DNA of 64,000 nt from Fredinandcohnia onubensis (GTDB lineage Bacteria > Bacillota > Bacilli > Bacillales > Bacillaceae_L): NCBI RefSeq assembly GCF_031181385.1, contig NZ_JAPSKV010000001.1, positions 434,001 through 498,000 of the forward strand, given 5' to 3'. Below are positions 11,289-54,952 of the stretch, piece after piece. Both the position numbers and the translations under genes were made by a program. Position 1 is the stretch's first letter. Every line of letters begins with the position of its first letter. The notes below the pieces were generated by a model. It searched no databases. It had not been told where the DNA came from and saw only the letters and a program-made list of their open reading frames with translations.

Positions 11289-12401
11289 ATGAGAGTACCG
11301 ATGTTAGACCTAACTGAACAGTATCAGGAATTAAGAACGGAGATATTAAGTCAATTAGAGGATGTAATGTCCAAAGCCTCTTTTATACTTGGAAATAATG
11401 TAAAAAAACTTGAAGCAGACATTGCAAGCTATAGCAATGTAAAGCATGGAGTAGGTGTTGCTAATGGTAGTGACGCTCTACATATTTCATTATTGGCGTG
11501 TGGAATTAAAGAAGGTGATGAGGTCATTACAACGGCATTTACCTTCTTCGCTACAGCTGGAGCAGTAGCTCGTATAGGTGCGAAGCCCGTTTTTGTTGAT
11601 ATTGACCCACAAACATTTAATATTGACCCTACTAAGATTGAGGATGCTGTTACTGAGAAAACCAAAGCAATTATTCCGGTTCATCTATACGGTCAAACGG
11701 CTGATATGGACGCAATCAATGAAATTGCAAAAAAACATAATTTGTTTGTGATAGAGGATGCAGCACAAGCGATAGGAGCGAAATATAAAGGTAAAAAGGT
11801 TGGAGAACTTGGAACCACTGCTTGTTATAGCTTTTTTCCTACAAAGAATTTAGGGGCATATGGCGACGGCGGAATGGTAGTCACAAATGATGATGAAATA
11901 AGTGAAAAAATGAGAGTTCTACGTGTACATGGTAGCAAACCGAAATACCATCATCATGTATTAGGTTATAACAGTAGATTGGACGAGCTGCAAGCTGCGA
12001 TACTAAATGTTAAGTTCTCACGTTTAGACCAATGGTGTGAATTAAGAAGAGAAAAAGCGCTCGTATATTCTGAGTTGTTAAATGAGACTGTTGGCCAACA
12101 TGTAACAACTCCTTATATGGCAGAAGATAACTATCATATTTTTCACCAATATACACTAAGAGTGGATAGACGTGATGAGTTACAACAGTATTTAAAAGAG
12201 AATGGAATTGATACCATGATTTATTACCCAATTCCATTACATCTACAACCGGTATTCTCTGAATTAGGTTATAAAGAGGGAGACCTTCCAGAAACCGAGA
12301 AAGCATGTAAGGAAGCATTGTCTTTACCTATGTACCCTGAACTACCGTTGGAAATGCAGAAATATGTTGTTGAAAAGATAGGGGAATTCTACACTAAATA
12401 A
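11289..12401 (+). CDS. DegT/DnrJ/EryC1/StrS-family PLP-dependent sugar aminotransferase (WbpE-like)
   Basis: 370 residues, ribosome site GGAGGT. PLP-binding features are in order: NGSDAL (about 59-64), the TTAFTFFATAGA block (81-92), IEDAAQAIGAKY (155-166) and the catalytic lysine at 186 in FFPTKNLGAYGDGG. The C-terminal YYPIPLHLQPVF motif is common in UDP-3-keto-sugar aminotransferases. It transfers an amino group from glutamate to a keto-sugar nucleotide. Followed by an LbH N-acyltransferase, it fits the WbpE-WbpD step of UDP-2,3-diacetamido-uronic acid synthesis. The NAD-dependent 3-dehydrogenase (WbpB) that should supply its substrate is not in this window. Confidence 0.87.
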   Translation: MRVPMLDLTEQYQELRTEILSQLEDVMSKASFILGNNVKKLEADIASYSNVKHGVGVANGSDALHISLLACGIKEGDEVITTAFTFFATAGAVARIGAKPVFVDIDPQTFNIDPTKIEDAVTEKTKAIIPVHLYGQTADMDAINEIAKKHNLFVIEDAAQAIGAKYKGKKVGELGTTACYSFFPTKNLGAYGDGGMVVTNDDEISEKMRVLRVHGSKPKYHHHVLGYNSRLDELQAAILNVKFSRLDQWCELRREKALVYSELLNETVGQHVTTPYMAEDNYHIFHQYTLRVDRRDELQQYLKENGIDTMIYYPIPLHLQPVFSELGYKEGDLPETEKACKEALSLPMYPELPLEMQKYVVEKIGEFYTK

Positions 12402-12421
12402 TCTTAGTTAGGGTGAGAAAT

Positions 12422-13135
12422 GTGAACAAACCAAAAAGTATTGGACAAAATGTTGTAATAGACGAAACGGTACATCTTGGGGAGAATGTGACAATTGGCA
12501 ATAATGTTATCTTATACGCGGGTGTTAGTATCGGTAATGATGTTGTTATCCAAGATAATGTCGTTATTGGGAAACAACCTGCTAGAGCTAAAAATTCTAT
12601 TCTTCCGGAAACGGGTACATTACCCCCAACTGTAATTGGATCAGGTTGCACGATTGGGACATCAGCGGTTATTTATGCGAATGCACAAATTTGCGACAAT
12701 GTTTTTATTGCGGATATGGCTACAATCAGGGAGCGAGTATCGATCGGGGATGGCACAATTGTAGGAAGAGGAGTAGCCGTAGAGAATGATTGCAAGGTCG
12801 GTATACGTTGCAAACTTGAAACAAATTGTTATATAACGGCTTATTCAGAATTGGGGAATTTTGTATTTATCGCACCATGTGTTGTAACTACAAATGATAA
12901 TTATATGGCGAGATCAAAGGAAAGGTACTCTAAATTTAAAGGAGTAACCATAAAAGACGGTGGTAGAGTAGGTGCAAATACTACAATCATGCCAGGAATC
13001 GTTATAGAAGAGGATGGAACAGTTGGAGCTGGAAGTGTAGTAACAAAAAATGTGGAAAGTGGAAAATTATATATCGGGGTACCGGCAAAAGTATATAAAG
13101 ATGTTCCAGAGGATCAACTGTTAAAAAACCAGTAA
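12422..13135 (+). CDS. Left-handed beta-helix N-acyltransferase (WbpD-like)
   Basis: A frame opens with GTG at 12413. The GTG at 12422 is preferred because GGGTGA lies five bases upstream, the same layout as the gene at 10112. About 237 residues, nearly all hexapeptide repeats ([LIV]-G-x4 pattern: IGNNVILYAGVSIGNDVVI and so on), folding as a left-handed parallel beta-helix trimer. The late GANTTIMPGIVIEEDGTVGAGSVV block and GVPAKVYKD end are typical of sugar-nucleotide acetyltransferases. It probably acetylates the amine set by the preceding aminotransferase, using acetyl-CoA. Last gene of the tight operon before a terminator. Confidence 0.83.
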   Translation: MNKPKSIGQNVVIDETVHLGENVTIGNNVILYAGVSIGNDVVIQDNVVIGKQPARAKNSILPETGTLPPTVIGSGCTIGTSAVIYANAQICDNVFIADMATIRERVSIGDGTIVGRGVAVENDCKVGIRCKLETNCYITAYSELGNFVFIAPCVVTTNDNYMARSKERYSKFKGVTIKDGGRVGANTTIMPGIVIEEDGTVGAGSVVTKNVESGKLYIGVPAKVYKDVPEDQLLKNQ

Positions 13136-38829: not shown

Positions 38830-39267
38830 ATGAAAATTGAAACGAAATACCATGGTGAAGTACATATTGATGAAAATGAGATCCTCACGTTTTCAAATGG
38901 AATACCTGGATTTCTAGAAGAAAAGAAATTTGTGATTCTTCCGTTTGGTGAGAATACTGGCATCTCTGTTATGCAGTCATTTGGCAATGCACAGGTAGCC
39001 TTTGTCGTAACAAATCCGTTTTTCTTTTTAAAGGATTATGATTTCACAATAGACGACCAGGCTGTCGAACAGCTCAAGTTAGAGAATGAAAAAGATGTAT
39101 CCGTATTTGCCATCTTAACTGTGCAGGATCCGTTTGAAAAAACAACGGCTAATCTACAAGCACCTGTTGTCATAAATAATAAAAGAAAACTTGGTAAACA
39201 GGTTATATTGATGAATACAAATTATCAAACGAAACACTCTATCTTTGATAAAGTGCCTACGAAATAG
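38830..39267 (+). CDS. fliW: Flagellar assembly factor FliW
   Basis: 145 residues. FliW signature: ILTFSNGIPGFLEEKKFVILPF at residues 18-39 and the NPFFFLKDYDF and VFAILTVQDPFEKTTANLQAPVVIN blocks. FliW binds CsrA to inhibit it and binds flagellin, so free flagellin releases CsrA to repress hag translation. csrA starts 12 bases downstream. Confidence 0.96.
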   Translation: MKIETKYHGEVHIDENEILTFSNGIPGFLEEKKFVILPFGENTGISVMQSFGNAQVAFVVTNPFFFLKDYDFTIDDQAVEQLKLENEKDVSVFAILTVQDPFEKTTANLQAPVVINNKRKLGKQVILMNTNYQTKHSIFDKVPTK

Positions 39268-39279
39268 GGGGTGGGAGAA

Positions 39280-39513
39280 ATGCTTGTTCTTACAAGAAAA
39301 ATAAATGAAGCAATAAAGATAGGTGATGATATAGAACTAACGATATTGTCTATTAGTGGGGATCAAATAAAAATAGGGATCGATGCACCGAGACATGTCG
39401 AAATTCATCGAAAAGAAATTTACCTAGATATTCAAAATGAAAATAACAATGCCTCCCAAACCTCAATTGATTTACTGAAAAAATTAAATATAAACTTTAA
39501 AAACACCCCGTAA
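39280..39513 (+). CDS. csrA: Carbon storage/translation regulator CsrA
   Basis: The frame opens at 39271 (GTG), but GGGGGTGGGAG serves ATG at 39280, giving [20 protein letters not shown]. 77 residues. The [18 protein letters not shown] core is conserved. CsrA dimers bind ANGGA in RNA hairpin loops; the hag leader about 160 bases downstream has a near-perfect site. The stop codon lies inside a terminator hairpin. Confidence 0.96.
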
Positions 39514-39577: not shown

Positions 39578-39603
39578 TAAACAATTAAAAATAATGTCGA
39601 TAC
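39578..39603 (+). promoter_or_regulatory. SigD promoter of hag
   Basis: TAAA (39578-39581), 14-base spacer, GTCGATAC (39596-39603), two bases from the SigD -10 consensus GCCGATAT. Same spacing as the flaG promoter at 44.8 kb. The leader to the hag start is about 105 bases. Confidence 0.65.
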
Positions 39604-39713: not shown

Positions 39714-41328
39714 ATGAGAATTAATCACAATATTGCTGCGTTAAATACTCACCGTCAATTAGGTGCAGCTTCTAACGCACAATCAAAATCAATGGAAAAA
39801 TTAGCTTCAGGTCTTCGTATCAACCGTGCAGGAGATGACGCTGCTGGATTAGCAATCTCTGAAAAAATGCGTGGACAAATTCGTGGATTAGATATGGCAG
39901 CTAAAAATGCCCAAGACGGTAGACTTGAAATGCCGCTCTAAGCAGTAATGCTTAGTTGAAAACTTCGTGAATTCGGTGGAACCCCAAACCAGCAAATAGT
40001 GGATGGTGGGCAATACCGAGCCAAGCCTAATGAATCGATAGAAAAGTAGTTAGGAAGGTGTGACGGTCAGGTGGTGAGGAATCGTACCAATAATCCACCC
40101 AAGAGCGCGGGGCACCCTAATAGGGTGAAGATATGACCTGAACTTTATGGAAACATAAAGAAGCAGAGGATAAAAAGCCACTGCGATAACAAAATTGATT
40201 TCTCTAATCCAAACAGCTGAAGGTGCTTTAAACGAAACACATTCAATTCTTCAACGTATGCGTGAATTGGCTGTTCAATCTTCTAATGATACTAATACAA
40301 CAACGGACCGTTCTGAGATACAAAAAGAAATTAATCAGTTAGTTGAAGAAATTGATCGAATTGGTAACACAACTGAATTTAACACAAAAAAATTAATTAA
40401 TGGTGGAGCAAATGTTTCGGGGACAGTTGGATCAAATCTAACTGGTATTGAAGTAGTTGGTGGTACTGGTGATACTACTGTAGGTGCATCTATTACTCTT
40501 ACTGCTGTAACTGATGCAACAAAAGCGGCAGAAACTAAGTCAGGTGCATTCACGACTGGAGCTGTAGCAGGTTCTGCACTATCCTTTACTGTAAATGGAA
40601 CAAGTTTTTCATTTGCTGTAGGTACTACTAATGAAAAGGTTGCTGAAACAATAAATGATGCTGGACTGGGTGTTACAGCATCATTTACTGCAGCAGATTT
40701 AACGATTACATCAAACACTGCGGGAAGTGCCTCTAAATTAAGTACTACTTTATCTGGTTCATTAGTAACAACTGCTGGTACGGATGCAACAGTTACATTA
40801 TCAGGTGGAGAACAGTATTCTGCTCAAGGCAATAATGTAACTATTGAAAGCGGGAATGCTAAAGGTTTAGAGTTTACTGTTAGCCAAGATTTATCCAGTC
40901 TATCTGCAAACAATACAATTACAGTAGCGAGTAACGGAACTCTTAACTTCCAGATTGGTGCTAACGAAAATCAAGAAATGAATATATCTATTAAAGATAT
41001 GAGATCAGGAGCTCTTGGTGTAAGTGGTATTGATGTGACTTCACAAACTAGTGCTTCTACTGCAATTACAACTATTAATAAAGCAATTGAAACTGTATCA
41101 GGTGAACGTTCAAAACTAGGTGCTTACCAAAACCGTTTAGATCACACTATCAATAACTTAGGTACATCTTCTGAAAACCTAACTGCTGCGGAATCTCGTA
41201 TCCGTGACGTAGACATGGCGAAAGAAATGATGGAACAAACTAAGAACTCTATCCTTTCTCAAGCAGCTCAAGCTATGTTAGCTCAAGCTAACCAACAACC
41301 ACAAGGAGTTTTACAACTTCTTCGTTAA
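39714..41328 (+). CDS. hag: Flagellin Hag, interrupted by a group I intron (join 39714-39920, 40198-41328)
   Basis: Exon 1 (69 codons) encodes [20 protein letters not shown] ... [12 protein letters not shown], the flagellin D0/D1 N-domain. Without splicing, translation leaves the flagellin frame after GGT and stops 7 codons later. Exon 2 resumes exactly at [15 protein letters not shown], with no residue missing compared with known flagellins. It ends in the C-terminal D1/D0 region ([44 protein letters not shown]). The joined product is 445 residues. The centre (about 150-320) is a Thr/Ala/Ser-rich variable domain. Translation start has CAAGGAGGAA, overlapping a CsrA site. Expression should need SigD, relief of CsrA and RNA splicing. 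Confidence 0.93.
39921..40197 (+). ncRNA. Group I self-splicing intron (277 nt, no endonuclease ORF) in hag
   Basis: Splice sites: exon 1 ends in CGGU (39917-39920), which pairs with GCCG (39932-39935) in the intron to form P1 with the required U.G pair. The intron ends in G (40197). P10 is clear: GAAAT (39927-39931) pairs with exon 2 ATTTC (40198-40202). Core: P4 TCGGT (39973-39977) with ACCGA (40015-40019) in the classical Q word ATACCGAGCCAAGCC; P7 GGTCA (40065-40069) with TGACC (40134-40138) in the S word AAGATATGACCTGAAC; P8 hairpin CACCCT-aat-AGGGTG (40113-40127); P9 CTTTATG-gaaa-CATAAAG (40143-40160). No homing endonuclease frame fits. Group I introns in flagellin genes have been reported in other Bacillaceae. 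Confidence 0.93.
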
Positions 41329-41686: not shown

Positions 41687-42646
41687 ATGAGCCTGATAAG
41701 AGGTATAGGCAAAGGTCTAGGTAAGGGGGCCGGTTTTCTTTTAGGAAAACCGATTGAATTTGTAGGTGAGGTAACAGGTTCCAATTTGATAGGTGACATT
41801 GGAAAAGGTGTGCAAAAGGCTTCTGAGTTTGCGGGAGATACAGCCGGACAAGTAGTGGGTGGGGCAGTTGATACCGTTTCAGGCATTATCAGTGAAGACC
41901 AAACCAAAAGAGATAAAGGTCTTGGGGAAATGGGAAATGCTGTTTCACGAACTGCAAAGGGTGTTGCTGTAACAGCGAAGAATGCGATCCATGATGGTGG
42001 CGATGTGATTGGCGGTTTCTTGGACGGTGATCACAACCGAATGAAAAAAGGTGCTTCCTCTCTTGTCAAAACTGTTGCAGTCGGAACAATAGCTGTAGGT
42101 GTAGTTGATGTAATAGATGGTGGGGGAGTAGCACAAGCTGAATCGGTAGATACTCCTAACACTCCTACACCAACTAGCGAAGCAGCACCTGCTATTGATG
42201 GAGTAGGAGAAGGTCCAGTAACCATTGAGACGACGAATGACCATTTAGCAGGAACTGTTCATCCTGAAACCAACGTTCCTTTTGAAACAAATACAGTTCA
42301 GCTTCCTAGTGGACAAGAAGTAACTGGGGTTTTTCCAATATTTGATGTAGAGCATGAGGTTCATATGGATAAGAGCTTGTATCTTCAGTCAGATTATGTG
42401 CATTTTTCTTATGCTAACGCCGAATTATATGATGATATACAAGTTAATCCTCAGCTTGCAGATGATTTAGGATTAAGTGAACAGGACATTCAAGCTTTAA
42501 CCAATGGCGATACTCCACAAGGTTTTACTTGGCATCACCACGAAGAACCAGGTGTCCTACAATTAGTTGATGAAGAGATTCACGCGAATACAGGGCATGA
42601 TGGTGGTAGAGTACTATGGGGTGGTGGAGAAGAATTTCGCCACTAA
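41687..42646 (+). CDS. Polymorphic toxin with C-terminal WHH-type HNH/EndoVII nuclease
   Basis: 319 residues, GGGGG before ATG. The first ~145 residues are Gly/Ala/Val-rich amphipathic segments (GKGLGKGAGFLLGKPIEFVG, VAVGTIAVGVVDVIDGGG) with no standard signal peptide. A Pro/Thr linker (TPNTPTPTSEAAP) follows. The C-terminal ~120 residues end with FTWHHHEEPGVLQLV, EIHANTGHDGG and W: the conserved WHH nuclease pattern of the HNH/EndoVII superfamily found in secreted bacterial toxins. Catalytic histidines are intact. No obvious immunity gene follows on the same strand; a convergent unknown gene lies next door. Target is presumably nucleic acid of competing cells (inference). Confidence 0.8.
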   Translation: MSLIRGIGKGLGKGAGFLLGKPIEFVGEVTGSNLIGDIGKGVQKASEFAGDTAGQVVGGAVDTVSGIISEDQTKRDKGLGEMGNAVSRTAKGVAVTAKNAIHDGGDVIGGFLDGDHNRMKKGASSLVKTVAVGTIAVGVVDVIDGGGVAQAESVDTPNTPTPTSEAAPAIDGVGEGPVTIETTNDHLAGTVHPETNVPFETNTVQLPSGQEVTGVFPIFDVEHEVHMDKSLYLQSDYVHFSYANAELYDDIQVNPQLADDLGLSEQDIQALTNGDTPQGFTWHHHEEPGVLQLVDEEIHANTGHDGGRVLWGGGEEFRH

Positions 42647-42675: not shown

Positions 42676-42715
42676 AGGACAAGATGGTAATCACTACTCT
42701 TGTCCTTTGATTTTA
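42676..42715. terminator. Hairpin between the convergent toxin gene and its neighbour
   Basis: AGGACAAGA / TCTTGTCCT (42676-42684 with 42698-42706), then TTGATTTTATT. It can terminate the toxin transcript. Confidence 0.7.
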
Positions 42716-43546
42716 TTCCTTAGGGATATGTTTTAACAGATTGTTAACCTGTTTTATCCCACTTTTTAATTTATCATTCTTTAGACTTTCTGAGTTTACT
42801 AAATTTGAAATGAGTTCTTGCGCAATAGGTATGTAATTTTGATACTTAGTAGCATGGGACTGATTGTGGGAATGATTACTTAACATTTCGAGTGATTGGT
42901 TAACAAAGTTTTCATAATCCTCTGTATTTTTCTTGAATGCAACCATTGTATCAAGTTCATTTTTAGTATGCTTTCCTTTTTTCGCTTTATCTTGAATTGA
43001 TTTTGCAAGTAAAGGTCTACCTATAATTGGGATAGAAGCGCCACCTAGGAGGGACCACTCGACCTCAGAATGAATACTTTTAATTTGTTGATCAAGTTTA
43101 TCTATGATTTCCTTTTGTTGGTCCAGTGAATCATCTAGAGATTTTTTTGAAAGAGTTAACCAATCTTCTGAATCAATAGTTCCACCTAGTAATGCCCAAC
43201 TTAGCCCAACATAACTTTGAATGTAACCTAGGATAAATAGATCTTTATAATCCTTAGTTGATTTTGCTTCATACATACCAAGACTTGATATGAAGTGTTG
43301 TTTTGCTTGCTGGATTAATTCATAACGTTCTTTATCGGTCCGGTGTTCCTTTTTTGCATCTTGAAGAAAAGTCATGCCTGAATAGAATGGACCAATCTGT
43401 AAAGTTTCTATACTTTGATGGATCGACGCTAATTTGTCTGCTTGTCGTTTCTCTACTACAAGTAATTCGTTTAGTAAATGCTGGTTAATCTGATTTTGAG
43501 ATAATTTTACAGCTAGGCTTATAGCTGTTAGTAATTCGCTATACAT
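42713..43546 (-). CDS. Predominantly helical protein of unknown function
   Basis: 277 residues with AGAGGAC before ATG. It lacks a signal peptide. The predicted content is mostly amphipathic helices rich in Lys, Gln, Ser and Leu (LLNELLVVEKRQADKLASIH; SLDDSLDQQKEIIDKLDQQI), with one apolar patch (LLGGASIPIIGRPLLA) near residue 170. No family is recognised. It converges on the WHH toxin gene, which is unusual for an immunity gene but does not exclude one. Region content (toxin, broken gene, riboswitch-controlled orphan) suggests acquired DNA. Confidence 0.7.
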   Translation of the reverse strand: MYSELLTAISLAVKLSQNQINQHLLNELLVVEKRQADKLASIHQSIETLQIGPFYSGMTFLQDAKKEHRTDKERYELIQQAKQHFISSLGMYEAKSTKDYKDLFILGYIQSYVGLSWALLGGTIDSEDWLTLSKKSLDDSLDQQKEIIDKLDQQIKSIHSEVEWSLLGGASIPIIGRPLLAKSIQDKAKKGKHTKNELDTMVAFKKNTEDYENFVNQSLEMLSNHSHNQSHATKYQNYIPIAQELISNLVNSESLKNDKLKSGIKQVNNLLKHIPKE

Positions 43547-43711: not shown

Positions 43712-43945
43712 TTAATTAACACCCACCATAGAACCACAAACCTTTGCATATGCTTTTTCAAGATTCCCCAATAAATCCTTCCGAAATATATCACCACATA
43801 TAAAATCATTCGTAATTTCCCTTTTTACTGATGAATAGGCAAATTCTACACTTTTACTAAAAGACAGATTCTGTGATTGTTCAATAGACATTTGGTTAAC
43901 TATTTCTTTTTCGAAATATTCAACAGTTCCAAATAGCACGGTCAC
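43712..43945 (-). CDS. Small unknown protein under c-di-GMP riboswitch control
   Basis: A frame opens at 43984, but AAGGGG precedes a GTG at 43945 by about nine bases, giving a 77-residue protein starting MTVLFGTVEYFEKEIVNQMS. It is soluble-looking, partly helical, with two cysteines (FICGDIF and KVCGS). No family recognised. Its leader on the minus strand holds a c-di-GMP-I aptamer (44105-44188) and then a terminator (44031-44058), so its expression should depend on c-di-GMP. It is the only gene between the riboswitch and a 165-base gap, so it is the regulated target. Confidence 0.65.
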   Translation of the reverse strand: MTVLFGTVEYFEKEIVNQMSIEQSQNLSFSKSVEFAYSSVKREITNDFICGDIFRKDLLGNLEKAYAKVCGSMVGVN

Positions 43946-44030
43946 GATAAACAGCCCCTTTTTATATAGAATTGTGGCTACCACACTAATTTATAATTAC
44001 AGATTGTTGATAGCTTTTTATAAAAATAAT

Positions 44031-44104: not shown

Positions 44105-44188
44105 TTTTTGGCAACTCGGCGATCATAGTTATCAGAACTTTAGACCCGTAGCTTTGCGTCCTTACCTTTCGATAAGTTTGCCTTTTTC
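44105..44188 (-). promoter_or_regulatory. c-di-GMP-I (GEMM) riboswitch aptamer, minus strand
   Basis: Read on the minus strand: GGCAAAC at 44182, GAAA tetraloop hairpin (CTTATC-GAAA-GGTAAG), the invariant GGACGCAAAGCTACGGG, a variable stem, then CGCCGAGTTGCC ending at 44110. P1 is GGCAA / TTGCC (44178-44182 with 44110-44114). GACGCAAAGC plus the tetraloop receptor is diagnostic of the c-di-GMP-I class. A terminator follows, then the 77-residue gene. Confidence 0.9.
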
Positions 44189-44403
44189 AATTTTTGTCAA
44201 TAGTTTTAAAATACTAATTTAATAATAAAATGAAAGTAGTGGTTTTTCAACAAATTTCAACAAAATACGATTTCATACCCTAAAAATAGATAATTATACC
44301 TATAACAAGGGTTGGATACCTTGGTGAACCTACCAAGTTAAAATAATCGTTTCAATGGATTAACATGTACAAGGGATCGAAATTTTAAGTCTAACAAAAA
44401 TTA

Positions 44404-47612: not shown

Positions 47613-47707
47613 ATACTTTATACCAGATAATAGTATAATGTACCTATTTTCTAAAATAGTATAAAGGTAATATAATAGTAAAGAATTAACAAAAAACCAA
47701 AGTGAAA

Positions 47708-47796
47708 AAGGCAAATTATAGGAAACTATAAGACGCAAAGCCATGGGCCTGACCCACATGATCGTATGATTCATGCGGATGGTAGCCGGTTGCCAC
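47708..47796 (+). promoter_or_regulatory. c-di-GMP-I (GEMM) riboswitch upstream of the FN3 adhesin
   Basis: GGCAA (47710-47714) pairs with TTGCC (47790-47794) as P1. Inside are the P2 hairpin TTATAG-GAAA-CTATAA, the invariant GACGCAAAGCCATGGGCCT, a variable P3 stem, and GGTAGCCGGTTGCC. All class hallmarks (GAAA tetraloop, GACGCAAAGCC, receptor strand) are present. A terminator (47822-47850) lies between it and the adhesin start at 47879. Confidence 0.93.
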
Positions 47797-47821
47797 AAGG
47801 AAACATAGTCTTTTAACCTAT

Positions 47822-54865: not shown

Positions 54866-54952
54866 ATTCGATAAGGGCAAACCTGGGGAAACCTAGCGAC
54901 GCAAAGCTATAGGGGCTTCATTGATTATTCAATATGCTCGCCAGCTACCGAA
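54866..54952 (+). promoter_or_regulatory. c-di-GMP-I (GEMM) riboswitch upstream of the Tad/Flp pilus operon
   Basis: GGGCAAAC (54875-), P2 hairpin CTGGG-GAAA-CCTAG, invariant GCGACGCAAAGCTATAGGGGC, a variable stem with loop (CATTGATTATTCAATATG), then CGCCAGCTACCG. P1 pairing is weaker than in the other two copies (3' side CTACC instead of TTGCC). A long terminator follows, then the pilin gene. Confidence 0.88.

Follow-up and report, generated by a model that had tools for sequence, protein, structure and literature searches.

Results

A group I intron separates the two halves of hag

The sequence analysed is a window of 64,000 nt from Fredinandcohnia onubensis; all coordinates are positions in the whole window, its first letter being position 1. 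The flagellin gene hag lies within it in two pieces, as follows.

39714–39920, plus strand: hag exon 1, 69 codons, ending ...NAQDG (ORF list, tblastn, Flagellin_N 1–67)
39921–40197, plus strand: group I intron, 277 nt, IA-like, with a terminal G at 40197 (RF00028, covariation with n = 21, same site in 20 other genes)
39939–39941, plus strand: in-frame TAA at intron codon 7 that ends translation of the unspliced mRNA, within the 5′ strand of P2
40198–41328, plus strand: hag exon 2, from ISLIQTAEG... to the stop (ORF list; Flagellin_N 68–136, Flagellin_C)

The intron falls between Gly69 and Ile70; its length is not a multiple of 3, and exon 2 is in a different frame from exon 1. A first-pass annotation of the window had placed a group I intron at exactly 39921–40197 and claimed that joining the exons restores the reading frame, and both claims hold. 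Joined at U39920/A40198, the exons encode a 445-residue protein that covers positions 1–136 of 139 in Pfam Flagellin_N (1–67 and 68–136 for the separate halves) and passes the NCBI flagellin-Hag model with 380.8 bits against a cutoff of 352. Scored separately, the halves reach only 118.3 and 247.8 bits, both below the cutoff, in line with the expectation that routine annotation would misread hag as a pseudogene. The Infernal comparison with RF00028 that had been proposed as a check gave a match of 68.9 bits (E = 2.4e-17, gathering cutoff 50) in a permissive scan of the region, and the filters of the default Rfam scan of the whole window left the intron unreported. Together with covariation across 21 homologues (below), this match confirms that the group I intron is real. 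Also as first described, the unspliced message encodes a fallback peptide that stops seven codons into the intron, and 277 nt leaves no room for an endonuclease; an intron-borne ORF or an IStron is ruled out by the same shortness.

Directly upstream of hag, at 38830–39513 (plus strand), the ORF list shows two genes that we take to be fliW and csrA, and the same two genes, under these names, also precede hag in many of the relatives' loci. A possible sigma-D promoter of hag at 39578–39603 (plus strand; TAAA, 14 nt, GTCGATAC) was read by eye against the sigma-D consensus. The flagellar neighbours of hag are intact in the ORF list. The interval between hag and flaG holds a Colicin-DNase/WHH toxin-like gene (41687–42646, plus strand), which was considered as a homing endonuclease and rejected, followed by minus-strand ORFs at 42713–43546 and 43712–43984; neither has an NCBIfam match, and Pfam returned none for 42713–43546. 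Three c-di-GMP-I riboswitches occur in or near the flagellar region, at 44107–44192 (minus strand), 47700–47797 (plus strand) and 54866–54952 (plus strand), one of them upstream of the minus-strand ORFs behind hag.

A flagellin search of the genome that contains the window found the two hag halves and a FlgL-like hook-associated gene at 28% identity, with a single flagellin C-terminus. A second intact hag, which according to the first-pass annotation would speak against its reading if it carried motility, was thus not found in this assembly of 39 contigs (listed completeness 100), in which a missing or collapsed copy is a small possibility. As the intron lies in hag and no second intact copy was found, we infer that motility depends on splicing. 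The genome-wide endonuclease search, which covered LAGLIDADG_2 and LAGLIDADG_3, gave no LAGLIDADG_2 (PF03161) match and one weak LAGLIDADG_3-like fragment with a stop (24.3 bits; genome G000, contig 12, 57861–58040, L300), on a different contig from hag; beside hag there is no relative of HEG1 or HEG2, the free-standing LAGLIDADG genes described below. A weak RF00028 match on contig 12, considered as a second intron, proved to be tmRNA.

The intron fold is supported by covariation

To evaluate the fold, 71 base pairs (P1, P2, P3–P9.1, P7.1, P7.2 and P10) were written down and counted on 21 homologous introns with their flanks. All of the helices named in the first-pass annotation (P1, P10, P4, P7, P8 and P9) could be drawn, as could P2, P3, P5, P6, P7.1, P7.2 and P9.1, so that the conserved core helices P3, P4, P6, P7 and P8 are all present. 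The principal elements are:

39915–39937, plus strand: P1, exon 39915/39917–39920 with guide 39932–39935/39937, and a U-G pair at the 5′ splice site
39927–39931, plus strand: P10 guide GAAAU, pairing with exon 2 AUUUC at 40198–40202, 5 of 5 pairs invariant in 21/21 introns
39963–40112, plus strand: P3, 39963–39969 with 40106–40112, enclosing P4–P6 and P7.1/P7.2
40065–40138, plus strand: P7, GGUCA 40065–40069 with UGACC 40134–40138
40113–40127, plus strand: P8 hairpin, one pair being UA in 13 and CG in 8 of 21 introns
40143–40184, plus strand: P9 and P9.1 hairpins, with both-sided changes in 4 of 6 pairs of P9.1 and none in P9

Pairing holds in 99.4% of the 1,491 pair cells (71 pairs in 21 introns). 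Both-sided changes were found in 11 of the 71 pairs, compared with a shuffled mean of 5.1 and none of 500 shuffles as high, and in 41 cells compared with 13.3 when shuffled; as a control, sliding the partners by 1–3 columns left 35–45% paired and at most four cells with a both-sided change. One of the five covariation measures, the number of further pair types, showed no excess (24 versus 25.2 shuffled). The both-sided changes lie in P2, P6a, P7, P7.1, P8 and P9.1, including the replacement of a G-C pair by A-U in P7, presumably the guanosine-binding helix, in 9 of 21 introns; the pair swaps in P2 are like those in P7 and P8, and the innermost pair of P8 holds in 15/21 introns only. Across the 21 introns no both-sided change was seen in P1, P10, P3, P4, P5, P7.2, P9 or the P6 stem. 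Four of the five P1 pairs are invariant in all 21, and P1 and P10, being nearly invariant, therefore provide no covariation evidence. The U-G pair at the 5′ splice site, the terminal G and the pairing of P10 with the 3′ exon are likewise conserved in 21/21. Group IA2 introns are recognized by P7.1 and P7.2 between P7 and P3; both can be drawn here, P7.1 with one both-sided change and P7.2 with two invariant pairs. Folding is only modestly more stable than in shuffled sequences (z = −2.17; 8 of 200 shuffles reached an equally low energy), and minimum-energy folding of the 277 nt did not recover the whole group I fold. The intron is almost certainly functional, and would splice itself with external guanosine.

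The same intron occupies the same site in other genera

Of 396 genomes from the order searched for the intron DNA, 39 gave any match, 25 of them partial; the other 14, including the genome of the window, have full-length copies and are distributed over eight family codes. All 14 full-length copies lie at NAQDG^ISLIQT/ISMIQT-type junctions (site 1). A pattern scan of named genomes, in which the pattern required GACGGT, returned at least 119 stretches and, by blastn, at least 13 carriers, six of which overlap with the first set. The carrier set thus comprises 21 genes, 14 found by intron similarity alone and seven by the pattern. Among the matches listed, the named carriers include Fredinandcohnia onubensis, Peribacillus asahii, Bacillus aerolatus, Aquibacillus salsiterrae, Virgibacillus subterraneus and three Oceanobacillus. 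The carriers span many genera besides the published thermophiles, in a patchy distribution: nine genomes of the genus of F. onubensis comprise four with the intron and five with an empty site. We take the carriers outside the published thermophiles, this genus included, to be mesophiles. Of 20 carrier stretches scanned with Rfam at permissive settings, five (L087, L089, L091, L183 and L187) gave no hit to the site-1 intron, so genes of this kind are probably under-annotated.

The 21 introns measure 274–283 nt, too short for an endonuclease gene in any of them, and in all of them translation from exon 1 would soon meet an in-frame stop, which is codon 7 of the intron in 18 and codon 2 in three. 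The exon 1 proteins of the 20 other carriers are 73–91% identical to that of the window, indicating that these hag genes are under constraint. The junction reads GACGGT^ATTTC, matching the P1/P10 guide, in 21/21 carriers, compared with 6 of 50 empty sites and none of five in the genus of F. onubensis; the 50 are the 52 empty sites printed minus two (L091 and L092) in which carriers had been read through, and the fetched sites are a non-random sample. This bias could reflect co-conversion of short exon flanks, a sequence requirement at the site or selection on P1/P10 pairing.

The F. onubensis record L084 (4040–9994) contains three tandem hag copies, two with introns and one without, and the two intron-bearing copies include stretches read as N. 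Other group I introns occur in the same genus (L098, L099, L100 and L101), with exons that by eye resemble ribonucleotide reductase (L098–L100) and thymidylate synthase (L101).

Across the 21 genes the intron DNA is 82–97% identical. Mean pairwise identity is highest for the introns (0.885), followed by exon 1 (0.740), the initial 180 nt of exon 2 (0.655) and fourfold sites (0.538). Of 210 pairs, 209 show greater identity in the intron than in exon 1 and all 210 greater identity than in exon 2, though part of this similarity could stem from RNA constraint. Grouping the four introns of the genus of F. onubensis as one clade was rejected (p-AU 0.026), and the same grouping of the exons of these four genomes was not (p 0.597), on which basis the site-1 intron seems to have crossed genera; elsewhere in the intron tree support is weak, with stars on 2 of 18 inner branches.

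Relatives carry two further intron sites with adjoining LAGLIDADG genes

In the hag genes of relatives, group I introns also occupy two other positions, termed site 2 and site 3. At site 2, RIRDVD^MAKEM, the introns are 337–370 nt long. Site 3 is at the C-terminus of flagellin, with C-terminal codons on both sides of the intron, which makes its boundaries ambiguous; on this arrangement, unspliced RNA with a site-3 intron may still encode full-length flagellin. The repeated codons around site 3 are seen in L086 (5716–6210), L084 (5314–5805), L085 (5803–6300) and L187 (4760–5259). Directly behind hag in these relatives, typically between hag and flaG, are free-standing LAGLIDADG_2 genes (PF03161) of two kinds, HEG1 (loci L084, L085, L094 and L132–L157) and HEG2 (loci L086, L087, L159–L161 and L306–L321).

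Matches to HEG1 occur in 34 of the 396 genomes, and in 29 the E-value is below 1e-10. At 26 of these 29 loci a flagellin could be assessed on the stretch, in every case within 2.5 kb and in 25 of 26 with HEG1 antisense, and in 23/26 the nearest flagellin contains a site-2 intron. The three exceptions are the F. onubensis record L084, in which the first hag copy has the site-2 intron, and the genomes G115 and G199, both of which have stops in HEG1. Flagellins that do have the intron can likewise adjoin a HEG1 gene that is truncated or has a stop (G051, G098, G258 and G345, among others). For HEG2, with matches in 27/396 genomes, 21 loci were taken: all are antisense, 20 lie within 2.5 kb and several have stops. 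By repeated C-terminal codons site 3 was recognized at 15/21 of these loci at the first threshold; an Rfam scan of eight of the 21 found the site-3 intron in 8/8, and at a looser E-value the repeated codons appeared in all eight, three of which the first codon test had missed. A lone group I intron-like stretch in L086 (11681–12016; 46.5 bits, below the cutoff) adjoins a broken HEG2 (12099–12960), the pair lying 6.9 kb behind hag and apart from any flagellin.

Every flagellin appears to be split at site 2 in about 57 of the 396 genomes, 29 of which were seen to be split on fetched DNA; this number derives from 60 genomes with best E-values of 1e-20 to 1e-9, read by hand, minus G011, where the gene lies at a contig end, and G080 and G141, with one half each. 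Such genomes make up 6 of the 14 site-1 carriers and 51 of the 382 others (Fisher p 0.008, kinship ignored). A PF03161 gene is present in 6 of the 14 site-1 carriers. Five of these genes lie at most 1.2 kb from a flagellin that has an intron at site 2 or 3 (in the F. onubensis record L084, the intron is in a neighbouring copy); the sixth, a fragment in G006, is 6.9 kb away from hag. Among ORF families shared around the 21 carriers, on stretches several of which end near hag, no clear endonuclease candidate emerged beyond those of HEG type. The question of how the intron spreads, left unclear in the first-pass annotation, is thereby taken further: sites 2 and 3 have adjoining LAGLIDADG genes, and none was found for site 1.

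Discussion

A probably splicing-dependent flagellin gene

Very probably, the only flagellin gene found in this genome is interrupted by a group I ribozyme, is spliced to give a normal flagellin, and carries an intron that is near-neutral to its host and has passed from genus to genus. In the course of events that we propose, ribosomes translating the 5′ half of hag would halt at intron codon 7 and so stay clear of the catalytic core. The intron would fold, with P1 and P10 aligning both exons; external guanosine held by P7 would attack after U39920, exon 1 would then attack after G40197, and the ligated mRNA would encode the normal 445-residue flagellin. The intron, free of protein-coding capacity, would travel as a near-neutral passenger. 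That hag is instead a pseudogene broken by an inert insertion, as the frameshift and early stop in a literal reading imply, is very improbable, given core helices retained with covariation, the presence of this insertion in 20 further genes whose exons are conserved, and its place in a gene that is the sole flagellin found and has intact flagellar neighbours.

The intron is a further member of a kind already known: the first-pass annotation placed such introns in some Bacillaceae, the published flagellin examples come from thermophilic Bacillus/Geobacillus, and passages of PMC3984707 and PMC4853749 cite Hayakawa and Ishizuka (2009, 2012) for temperature-dependent self-splicing of thermophilic Bacillus flagellin introns. 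Like the group IA2 intron of Geobacillus stearothermophilus and thermophilic Bacillus described in those passages, it belongs to group I and interrupts the flagellin gene of a member of the Bacillales; it differs in residing in the genus of F. onubensis. Because the published flagellin introns are temperature-dependent, according to the relevant passage of PMC4853749, the efficiency of splicing in this strain is uncertain.

Outside flagellin, the 3′ part of the intron is 73–81% identical over 68–107 nt to four phage records (L302–L305; for example Lactobacillus phage JCL1032 and Streptococcus phages Javan576 and SW13). These matches differ in host gene, lying in or beside tape measure, portal and terminase genes, and none of the 69 matching records covers 80% of the intron. 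We read the matched stretches as introns, annotated as a joined gene only in JCL1032, and they suggest that the flagellin intron may have had a phage source.

How the site-1 intron may move

In collaborative homing, a free-standing endonuclease acts at the site of an intron, as in psbA of cyanophages. The endonuclease-free flagellin introns at sites 2 and 3, each with a separate, predicted LAGLIDADG endonuclease gene nearby, resemble this arrangement; they differ in lying in a chromosomal bacterial gene, and the site-1 intron of the window has no such partner. We tentatively picture the Bacillales flagellin gene as a three-site homing hot spot, in which two free-standing antisense LAGLIDADG genes drive sites 2 and 3, the site-1 intron is a partnerless passenger of their gene conversion, and splicing-dependent motility would be common (about 57/396 genomes). 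In a literature search that covered few subscription journals, no title dealt with several flagellin intron sites or partner endonucleases.

For the window intron, this picture would mean that endonucleases encoded beside hag cut intron-less flagellins at site 2 or 3, that repair copies the site-1 intron along with the rest, and that the window has lost the other elements or never acquired them. Such hitchhiking is conceivable, somewhat short of an even prospect. It agrees with the presence of three intron sites in the relatives' hag, the company that HEG1 keeps with site-2 introns (two of the three exceptions having HEG1 with stops) and HEG2 with site-3 introns in all eight loci scanned of the 21 fetched, the excess of site-2 splitting among site-1 carriers with kinship ignored, and the exon bases beside the intron that carriers have in common. 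However, at least four site-1 genes (the window, L093, L095 and L188) have no site-2 or site-3 intron, the genome of the window lacks a LAGLIDADG_2 match, and broken HEGs also occur in intron carriers and so do not mark the intron-less cases only.

Just as possible, to our minds, is that the site-1 intron once had an endonuclease of its own, since lost both in cis and from the genome, and now moves by chance recombination at hag. All 21 introns, at 274–283 nt, lack space for an endonuclease gene, and the shared ORF families beside the carriers, stretches ending near hag included, hold no clear candidate apart from the HEG type. A rather recent movement is nevertheless suggested by the 82–97% identity of the introns against 0.54 at exon fourfold sites and by the conflict of the intron tree with the genus, an argument tempered by the capacity of RNA constraint to preserve intron similarity.

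We consider it unlikely that the intron is kept as a switch, its splicing responding to temperature or another signal so that flagellin is made only under some conditions. Passages of PMC4853749 report temperature-dependent splicing with a proposed regulatory role in thermophile flagellin introns, and a passage of PMC8987985 cites a c-di-GMP-stimulated, endonuclease-free group I intron for Clostridium difficile; the early stop (codon 7 in 18/21, codon 2 in 3/21) would make the unspliced RNA a clean off state, and the intron sequence is highly conserved. Yet no ligand aptamer reaches the Rfam gathering score beside the intron, the three c-di-GMP-I riboswitches being away from hag; the empty site in five other genomes of the genus argues against any general need for the intron; and many ordinary introns of coding genes likewise have an in-frame stop beyond the 5′ splice site, as a passage of PMC3984707 notes.

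Implications

For the near-neutral, spliced passenger that we favour, what is unusual is the single hag, the carriers in many genera and the three-site pattern with site-specific neighbours that leaves site 1 partnerless; the surroundings of hag in relatives are more novel than the intron itself. The genes of relatives suggest that flagellin genes may be a repeated landing site for several introns. The wider pattern is a natural test of how endonuclease-free introns spread in bacterial chromosomes, offering sites with and without an adjoining endonuclease gene in one gene and one genus, with empty alleles available. If expression of hag is splicing-dependent, production of a major structural protein relies on a ribozyme, with no backup gene found; and if the three-site hot spot is true, splicing-dependent motility would be common rather than exotic.
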